Shown: piece after piece, positions 52,235 through 53,575 of the stretch
Numbering within the stretch: position 1 is the first letter of the stretch
Layout: every line of letters begins with the position of its first letter
Origin: Geomonas ferrireducens
GTDB lineage: Bacteria > Desulfobacterota > Desulfuromonadia > Geobacterales > Geobacteraceae
Length of the DNA stretch: 64,000 nt
Direction: 5' to 3'
NCBI RefSeq assembly: GCF_004917065.1
Contig: NZ_SSYA01000001.1
Location: 371,001 to 435,000, forward strand
Position numbers and translations under genes: made by a program
The notes under the pieces: generated by a model
Seen by the model: only the letters and a program-made list of their open reading frames with translations
The model's database searches: none
What the model was told of the DNA's origin: nothing

Positions 52235-52891
52235 ATGAAAAGCGTACAAGTGAAGGGAAGCGCGGAGCCGGTCAGGATCGGCAAGATCCTCTGCATCGGG
52301 CGCAACTATGCGGATCACATAAAGGAGCTGGGGAACGAGACGCCGGAGCGCCCGGTCATCTTCACCAAGCCCGCCTCCAGCGTCATCGGCGAGGGTGAGG
52401 AGATCGTCATCCCCCCCTACTCCGGCGACTGCCACCACGAGGCGGAGTTGGCGCTCCTCATCGGGAAAAAGGGGAAGGAGATCGCGGCCGCTGACGCGCT
52501 CTCACACGTCGCGGGTTACGGCGTCGCCATCGACCTGACGCTCAGGGACGTGCAGGCGGAGCTCAAGAAGAAGGGGCTTCCCTGGGACATCGCCAAAGGG
52601 TTCGACACCGCCTGCCCCCTCTCCTCCTTCGTCCCGGCCGGGGCAGTATCCGATCCGCAGGCCCTGCGCATCACCCTCACCGTGAACGGCGAGAAGCGCC
52701 AGGACGGCGGCACCGACCTGATGATCCACCGCATCCCGGAGCTTCTTTGCTACCTCTCCTCGGTCTTCACCCTGGAGCCGGGGGACCTCGTGCTTACCGG
52801 CACGCCGGCCGGTGTCGGCCCGGTGAAAAGCGGGGACCGCGTGGTCGCCGAAATCGGCGGCGTGGGGCGGATCGAGGTCTCGGTCCGCTGA
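52235..52891 (+). CDS. Fumarylacetoacetate hydrolase-family protein
   Basis: 218 aa, GGGAGAATC upstream. FAH fold: ILCIGRNYADHIKELGNETP, PVIFTKPASSVIGEGEEIV, CHHEAELALLIGKKGKEI (metal-binding His/Glu region), YGVAIDLTLRDVQAELKKKG, PWDIAKGFDTACPLSSFVP and LTGTPAGVGPVKSGD. Members split acylpyruvates or decarboxylate oxaloacetate using Mg2+/Mn2+. Specific substrate unknown. It lies 16 bases after the radical SAM gene and 33 bases before the candidate selenoprotein gene. Confidence 0.9.
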   Translation: MKSVQVKGSAEPVRIGKILCIGRNYADHIKELGNETPERPVIFTKPASSVIGEGEEIVIPPYSGDCHHEAELALLIGKKGKEIAAADALSHVAGYGVAIDLTLRDVQAELKKKGLPWDIAKGFDTACPLSSFVPAGAVSDPQALRITLTVNGEKRQDGGTDLMIHRIPELLCYLSSVFTLEPGDLVLTGTPAGVGPVKSGDRVVAEIGGVGRIEVSVR

Positions 52892-52924
52892 CAGTTGATG
52901 TTCAATGAAAAGGAGGGTCAAGAG

Positions 52925-53074
52925 ATGACCAACGAGAAAAGCTGCCCCGACTGCCAGGGGCTCATGATCCTGATGCCCGGCTGAGGGGGCCTCTTCTGGC
53001 GGTGCCAGAAGTGCGGCAAACGACTCCCGCTGAGCCCCGACGGCTCCAAGGGATGCGGATGCGAGTGTGAGTAA
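52925..53074 (+). CDS. Candidate selenoprotein: zinc-ribbon peptide with in-frame TGA
   Basis: If TGA at 52982-52984 is read as selenocysteine, the frame encodes 49 residues: MTNEKSCPDCQGLMILMPG-U-GGLFWRCQKCGKRLPL, then a Gly/Cys/Glu-rich end GCGCECE. AAGGAGGG precedes the ATG. CPDC and CQKC form a zinc-ribbon-like pair flanking U20, and three more Cys end the protein. Reading stays open and Cys-rich after the TGA, and a perfect 8-bp hairpin with a GGU loop starts 8 bases beyond it, where bacterial SECIS elements lie. Geobacter species are known to make selenoproteins. The alternative is a nonsense change in a small zinc-ribbon gene (for example from TGC or TGG). I do not recognise a named family. 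Confidence 0.6.
52985..53011 (+). promoter_or_regulatory. SECIS-like hairpin after the in-frame TGA
   Basis: CTTCTGGC (52993-53000), loop GGT (53001-53003), GCCAGAAG (53004-53011). The loop begins 17 bases after the TGA, inside the 16-37 base window typical for bacterial SECIS apical loops, and contains the GGU expected for SelB recognition. Confidence 0.55.
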
Positions 53075-53076
53075 CG

Positions 53077-53109
53077 AAAAGGGGGACCGGCTAACCGGTC
53101 CCCCTTTTT
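53077..53109. terminator. Bidirectional terminator
   Basis: AAGGGGGACCGG-ctaa-CCGGTCCCCCTT with A-run before and T-run after; closes the plus-strand thi/FAH/selenoprotein unit and the minus-strand YaaR-type gene. Confidence 0.88.
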
Positions 53110-53125: not shown

Positions 53126-53575
53126 CTAGAGGAGGAAGTCGACGACGAGCCCCTTTATCTTCACGATCTGGGCGACGATGCGGATGTGGTCCTTCTGCTC
53201 GCGCATGACCAGGTGGTAGAGGAGGTCGGCCTCCTTGTCGATCACGCTGATCACCTCGTGGCTGCGCCCGGTCACCCCGCCCCCCAGAAGTTCCATCCGG
53301 TACGCCTCGGCGGAAACCTTGCGCGCCATGGTGCCAAGGAGCTCGCGAAACGCCTTGAAGTTGGCGATGGTCGGCTCCTGCTCGAGGATGTCCCCGGCCC
53401 GGTCGATCTCCTCCTTCAGGCGCTGCAACTCGCCGGAGTAGTCGGAGTTCGCCTTGGTGACCGCGGCGAGCCGACCGGCAAACAGGGGGGCGCCCGGGGC
53501 CGCCACCCCCTTCGCGGGGGTCCCTTTTTCCTTCTTTGCTATGGAGCGGGAGTCGGATTTTTCGTTGATACGCAT
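53126..53575 (-). CDS. YaaR-family (DUF327) protein
   Basis: 149 aa. A low-complexity basic N-terminus (MRINEKSDSRSIAKKEKG) is followed by a helical domain with the family's pattern: ELQRLKEEIDRAGDILEQEP, NFKAFRELLGTMARKVSAEA, VISVIDKEADLLYHLVMREQ and a hydrophobic end IVKIKGLVVDFLL. YaaR proteins are small helical proteins of unknown biochemical role found in Firmicutes and many flagellated bacteria. It stands alone between two terminators. Confidence 0.75.
   Translation of the reverse strand: MRINEKSDSRSIAKKEKGTPAKGVAAPGAPLFAGRLAAVTKANSDYSGELQRLKEEIDRAGDILEQEPTIANFKAFRELLGTMARKVSAEAYRMELLGGGVTGRSHEVISVIDKEADLLYHLVMREQKDHIRIVAQIVKIKGLVVDFLL

Follow-up and report, generated by a model that had tools for sequence, protein, structure and literature searches.

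We present here a small gene on the plus strand, at positions 52925 to 53074, of a 64,000-nucleotide stretch of the Geomonas ferrireducens genome (contig NZ_SSYA01000001.1, positions 371,001 to 435,000), referred to below as the window. The gene starts with ATG at 52925, ends with TAA at 53072-53074, and comprises 49 codons, the 20th of which is an in-frame TGA (52982-52984, plus strand). On read-through, it encodes 49 residues, MTNEKSCPDCQGLMILMPG-U-GGLFWRCQKCGKRLPLSPDGSKGCGCECE, with selenocysteine (Sec) as U20. The Shine-Dalgarno-like sequence AGGAGG (52911-52916, plus strand) lies 8 nt 5′ of the ATG, and GGAG is found within 20 nt 5′ of the start in 25 of 32 homologues. The product contains a first CxxC motif (C7 and C10; 52943-52954), a second CxxC motif, CQKC (C27 and C30; 53003-53014), and a Cys-rich tail (C44, C46, and C48; 53054-53068), all on the plus strand; both CxxC motifs are invariant in a 25-row alignment of the family (A1), and the tail carries CxC or CC in most homologues. 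An earlier note on this DNA had described a 49-codon frame with a ribosome-binding site, open save for the TGA at codon 20 and retaining CxxC, U, CQKC, and a Cys-rich tail on read-through; its coordinates, ribosome-binding site, and motifs agree with our reading of the sequence and its translation. Judged from this sequence and its homologues, the product is very probably a selenoprotein, with Sec and not a stop at the TGA codon.

The gene lies 33 nt 3′ of a fumarylacetoacetate hydrolase (FAH) family gene (52235-52891, plus strand; NF007967, 228.3 bits; cut-off, 201), which itself lies 15 nt 3′ of the gene for the tRNA modification radical SAM protein MnmL/YtqA (TIGR01212; 51266-52219). Just 3′ of the selenoprotein gene, a hairpin with a 13-bp stem and a T run (53077-53108, plus strand) is terminator-like and is predicted from its sequence to be an intrinsic terminator. 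Spacing and orientation suggest that the selenoprotein gene and the FAH-family gene probably share an operon, of which the selenoprotein gene would be the last. The minus strand at 53126-53575 encodes a 149-residue protein that has no NCBIfam match at an E value of ≤0.001 and that occurs near the selenoprotein gene in the closest relatives. Over the whole window, nothing reached the Rfam gathering threshold, and ARAGORN found no tRNA.

A bacterial SECIS-like hairpin is located within the gene at 52993-53011 (plus strand) and consists of the arms CTTCTGGC (52993-53000) and GCCAGAAG (53004-53011) with the loop GGT (53001-53003). The stem is perfect and begins 8 nt after the TGA. The bacterial SECIS model given in the Fig. 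2 legend of PMC13188914 has a loop of 3 to 9 nt with a G in its first two positions, a stem of 4 to 16 bp, a UGA-to-loop spacing of 16 to 37 nt, and a minimum free energy of ≤-7.5 kcal/mol; the window hairpin agrees with that legend on all four counts (3-nt GGU loop, 8 bp, 16 nt, and -10.9 kcal/mol). The hairpin and its distance are thus as the earlier note had reported them.

The genome encodes tRNA-Sec (74.9 bits; gathering score, 47), SelB (395.9 bits), SelA (609.9 bits), and SelD (359.2 bits), the last with an in-frame TGA, as well as three FdhA genes, each with an in-frame TGA. Lack of selB or selC had been named beforehand as evidence against Sec; selA, selB, selC, and selD are all present. 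Like the gene described here, selD of the same genome has an in-frame TGA followed, at a spacing of 17 nt, by an 8-bp hairpin whose loop is 3 nt long; the FdhA genes share the in-frame TGA and a SECIS-type stem-loop, in all three with the loop GGUCU. The SelD and FdhA proteins are unrelated to the 49-residue product. Since selB scored over the cut-off in all 58 relatives searched, its presence or absence is uninformative as a test within the order.

A six-frame search of the 58 relatives found a homologue in 32, which represent 13 of the 24 genera. Every homologue has a single internal stop, a TGA; in 32/32, this TGA is codon 20, between the two CxxC motifs. When a collection of 84,980 species was scanned, 110 stretches were obtained, from which 45 named loci were confirmed; all 45 have TGA at the Sec site. 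The site was checked residue by residue in these two sets, the 32 matching relatives and the 45 named loci, and neither contains a sense codon there, including the Trp or Arg codons that the earlier note had listed as contrary evidence, or a Cys form of the family, which we call the PGU branch. Because one of the two peptide patterns used in the scan had Cys at the Sec site, any Cys form sharing its motif and sufficiently similar overall should have turned up. Of the 45 named loci, 44 carry labels from in or around the Geobacter group (Geomonas, Citrifermentans, Trichlorobacter, Oryzomonas, Geotalea, Geobacter, Geomobilimonas, and Geobacteraceae, plus metagenome-assembled genomes [MAGs] labelled merely Deltaproteobacteria, Pelobacter, or Desulfuromonadaceae). 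The sole member labelled outside this group is in a MAG of Candidatus Methylomirabilota (L096:4351-4524); its copy has the same 8-bp stem with the loop GUU, its genome encodes selB (368.9 bits), its locus has no FAH match, and its neighbours are presumably glycogen-synthase-like, MBL-fold-like, and galT-like. Transfer or misbinning is possible for this copy. In Geotalea toluenoxydans (L097:6001-6146), a frameshift that reflects sequencing error or decay falls right after the TGA.

Matches were found in 59 of 277 genomes of the class, 57 of which we counted as members; all 57 are within the order of the window and have the TGA, and one is split by a frameshift. Three matches without a TGA (in G513 and G562 and a second, weak one in G001) were dropped from this count without their sequences being read. 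At the phylum level, 13 of 395 genomes matched at an E value of ≤0.001, seven of them with the PGU branch. The other six comprise two NF041197-type proteins with RTU (L047 and L049) and four dual-CxxC frames of a different type (L048, L050, L051, and L052), in which the spacing is wider and the site holds a residue other than Sec or Cys; in L048 and L052, the reported stops lie 3′ of the motif. A viral-contig locus (L039) was rejected as a 21-residue match without the CxxC-U-CxxC frame. The gene is absent from 26 of the 58 relatives, all of which have selB, and is therefore dispensable.

The region downstream of the TGA is conserved. In alignment A1, C7, C10, P18, G19, and GGLFWRCQKCG are among the invariant positions; more divergent members outside A1 have His for Leu (L087) or PA-U-GT (L090). 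Among 12 sequences from the same genus, pN/pS is 0.17 before the TGA versus 0.38 in the tail after the hairpin, and the latter value speaks for in-frame translation beyond the TGA. A lack of conservation downstream, which the earlier note would have taken as counterevidence, is hence not what the alignment and the tail pN/pS indicate. The homologues are 45 to 54 residues long, and 30 of 32 have six Cys besides Sec (one has seven and one has four). Among the 49 distinct read-through proteins listed, the tail motif is CxC in 39 and CC in 6. The four remaining entries have a replaced tail (one protein counted twice, as two entries that differ by first-letter treatment), CxxxC, or a single tail Cys.

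The hairpin codons are frozen. Codons were counted in 75 coding sequences (CDS) from overlapping sets (32 from the genomes of relatives and 43 from named loci, with the divergent L096 and the frameshifted L097 excluded), 50 of which are distinct. Among these 50, CTC is conserved in 49 and TTC, CGG, TGC, CAG, and AAG in all 50; nearby codons for equally invariant residues do vary, with Gly at +11 encoded by four codons. In the neighbouring genes of 20 representatives with less than 90% identity, a mean of 30% of the Arg codons are CGG, and CTC accounts for a mean of 30% of the Leu codons. The naive log10 probability of finding the same codon in 20/20, which ignores shared ancestry, is -11.2 for CGG (20/20 seen) and -11.9 for CTC (19/20 seen). 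Covariation is absent because the stem never varied among the homologues. The earlier note had looked to homologues with TGA at position 20 and a conserved hairpin as support, and both are found here, the former in 32/32 and the latter as frozen codons.

From this one sequence alone, the case for a selenoprotein is suggestive, not decisive; the homologues make the case. An 8-bp hairpin is in range at 11 of the 1,818 TGAs of the window (three of the 11 share the hairpin at 52993-53011, and one has the stem at 53077-53108), the 52925-53074 frame is the only one of 91 TGA-interrupted ATG frames in the window to have one in range, and the fold of the 51-nt stretch is not clearly superior to those of its shuffles (z, -0.83; 34 of 200 equally good). 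These single-sequence figures are not extreme and would suit a true stop within a decaying gene or between two chance frames, but the TGA at the same codon in 32/32 matching genomes across 13 genera, the GGLFWRCQKCG that follows it invariantly in the 25 aligned sequences, and a tail under purifying selection make this explanation very improbable. Reading of the TGA as another residue without selenium (Trp, Cys, or near-cognate read-through) is hardly credible at all, with TGA terminating other genes of the window in the usual way, such as the FAH gene (52889-52891), a complete Sec machinery in the genome, and a hairpin constrained at synonymous sites. Sec insertion at UGA inherently competes with termination, and the codon could be a selenium-responsive switch that gives a 19-residue peptide at low selenium and the full protein with selenium, the balance being the function; the first 19 codons do encode a conserved peptide. 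This proposal appears improbable against the terminator-like hairpin after the gene, the lack of an evident downstream target gene in the window, and the protein-level constraint on the tail. We infer instead that UGA codon 20 is almost certainly decoded as Sec by SelB and Sec-tRNA, directed by the downstream hairpin.

In 39 of the 45 named loci, the gene immediately upstream, in the same orientation, is the FAH gene, as determined by tblastn with the window proteins. The exceptions are three loci that contain no FAH match (L066, L080, and L083), one in which FAH lies at a distance of 1 kb (L084), one just inside the start of its contig (L089), and L096. In many named loci, the MnmL, FAH, and selenoprotein genes follow, in this order, two genes that we take to be thiG and thiE. 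FAH is also present in 22 of the 26 relatives without the selenoprotein gene, and in the 19 readable of 20 FAH loci in such relatives, no CxxC...CxxC frame occurs within 500 nt downstream; there is thus no hidden Cys version at those 19 loci. Downstream neighbours vary from locus to locus and by eye are presumably NadA-like, ribosomal-protein-like, phospholipase-D-like, and GGDEF-like. Inspection by eye of the 15 neighbour clusters printed, for which the longest open reading frames had been used and antisense frames confused the clustering, revealed no conserved redox partner. FAHD1, the mitochondrial FAH-family member, is described as an oxaloacetate tautomerase and decarboxylase in the part of PMC12176266 consulted.

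Among known small selenoproteins, the closest curated model is NF041197 (dual CXXC motif small [seleno]protein), which shares with the window protein its small size, Sec at the equivalent place, and, in most members printed, the spacing CxxC-x9-[U/C]-x6-CxxC. The two differ in that the window protein reaches 24.4 bits, below the cut-off of 40, and its match stops at model position 31 of 53; NF041197 has RxU where the window branch has PGU; its C-terminal part, mostly with a DRI/DRL-like or IIYD ending, is replaced here by a short Cys-rich tail; and it includes both Sec and Cys members, whereas no Cys form was found in the PGU branch. At an E value of ≤0.001, the NF041197 model matched none of the 58 relatives in a six-frame search. 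All 25 members of A1 match it at an E value of ≤1 (best, 1.3e-5); for the one A1 member tabulated, no family ranks higher. Three Pfam matches were obtained, all under the cut-off. NF041197 itself is over its cut-off in 87 of 395 genomes of the phylum sample, with members both with and without TGA; those without TGA have Cys at the site where it was read, and this alternation of Sec and Cys is as would be expected for a thiol/selenol site.

In profile-profile comparisons, the window family matched an alignment of 22 RxU-type or Cys members (A3) at 97.2% probability (E value, 3.1e-11), over the CxxC-U-CxxC core only, and matched an alignment of GxU-type members (A4) weakly at 27.3% (E value, 6.6e-4); A3 and A4 matched each other at 98.1%. 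We regard A3 as OS_HP3-like and A4 as DW-like by the RxU or GxU motif alone, the named accessions not having been compared. Hypothetical proteins OS_HP3 (RxU) and DW (GxU) are both filed under NF041197 in Table 1 of PMC13188914; DW derives from deep-Sep (2025), according to the part of PMC12013277 consulted. The GxU-type loci taken as DW-like by motif have the same CxxC-U-CxxC spacing as the window protein and differ from it in GxU in place of PGU and in a YxxEIExxKE-like C-terminal segment. The two names are unsettled in the literature, since SMF39960.1 is OS_HP3 in the consulted part of PMC9312934 and DW in that of PMC13188914. Within Table 1 of the latter, only RxU and GxU proteins are listed under NF041197, and no entry fits a small CxxC-PGU-CxxC protein. 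The consulted parts of the literature on novel Geobacter selenoproteins (PMC1914089 and PMC1242214) cover cytochromes and known families. No prior description of the PGU branch was found in the portions of these sources consulted; the figures and supplements of deep-Sep and the original OS_HP3 paper could show members. The earlier note had called the protein a candidate new selenoprotein of a family it did not recognize: the branch does look unlisted, but its kinship to the NF041197, OS_HP3, and DW group had been overlooked. On sequence grounds, the PGU branch looks like a divergent, so far Sec-only relative, in the Geobacter group, of NF041197-type dual-CXXC selenoproteins.

Several other dual-CXXC genes were observed in the phylum sample. 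GxU genes with TGA that score under the NF041197 cut-off occur in other genomes of the phylum at L128 to L132, L134 to L136, L138, L139, L142 to L148, L150, and L156. By our count, 32 of 111 matching genomes have two NF041197 matches, often one of each type; entire branches thus seem to escape the curated model. A branch with the motif U-Q-G and a different C-terminal segment is found at L151:999-1184, L153:947-1132, L154:1003-1209, and L149:1039-1206, the last with a Cys immediately 5′ of the TGA (CU). One NF041197 match (L152; G101:C34:23348-23437) has two in-frame TGAs; it might be either a member with two Sec residues or a frame that arose by chance.

A four-stranded structure model of the window protein places the Sec residue at the turn that joins the strands at residues 13-19 and 22-27; its pLDDT is moderate at 73.1, with residues 41-49 below 50. 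Foldseek returned no match to the model at an E value of ≤0.001. Its top matches were chain-I subunits of eukaryotic RNA polymerases, presumably of the Rpb9 type, and ZifS (TTHA0897); these are small zinc-binding beta folds but have no Sec, and the resemblance, at E values above 0.001, is one of fold type only. Together, motif and model suggest that the four Cys of the two CxxC motifs likely hold zinc in a small zinc-ribbon. In the model, Sec would sit between the CxxC pairs, exposed at the tip of a beta-hairpin turn, from which it might attack a disulfide or an oxidant; the selenenyl-sulfide could then be resolved by one of the Cys in the C-terminal CxC/CC tail. We tentatively favour such selenol/thiol redox chemistry, with a tail Cys as the resolving thiol, as a role that the protein may have.

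The main rival for the biochemical role is that Sec and the Cys-rich tail serve as a soft-metal ligand, for zinc, copper, mercury, or cadmium, in a sensor, chaperone, or scavenger and not in a redox catalyst. Several of the selenoproteins listed in Table 1 of PMC13188914 bind or transport metals, and the small size of the homologues (45 to 54 residues), the presence of six Cys together with Sec in 30 of 32, a zinc-ribbon-like motif, and CxC or CC tails would all fit. Against it, no metal transporter or regulator was recognized by eye among the 15 neighbour clusters printed. Moreover, we know of no metal-binding motif with Sec at such spacing, and we consider this role somewhat doubtful. The proposal of redox chemistry can also be extended to a Sec-only enzyme or redox carrier in which Cys is unable to substitute and which partners the FAH-family enzyme in central carbon metabolism. 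This would be a zinc-ribbon of 45 to 54 residues with a catalytic selenol at the hairpin tip, next to an FAH enzyme that is possibly oxaloacetate tautomerase-like; the extension is speculative, and we regard it as a whole as unlikely.

Both halves of the gene are shorter than 30 codons, so ordinary gene callers are expected to miss it. The authors of deep-Sep state, in the part of PMC12013277 consulted, that selenoproteins without Cys homologues may escape their method; as no Cys form was found, tools based on Cys homologues are liable to miss the PGU branch. The gene described here is a well-supported addition to the bacterial selenoproteome, beyond the reach of the closest curated model, NF041197. 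Its product is a Sec-only candidate whose small size would permit complete synthesis, determination of its structure, and comparison of Sec and Cys forms; the conserved FAH neighbour provides a first functional lead.
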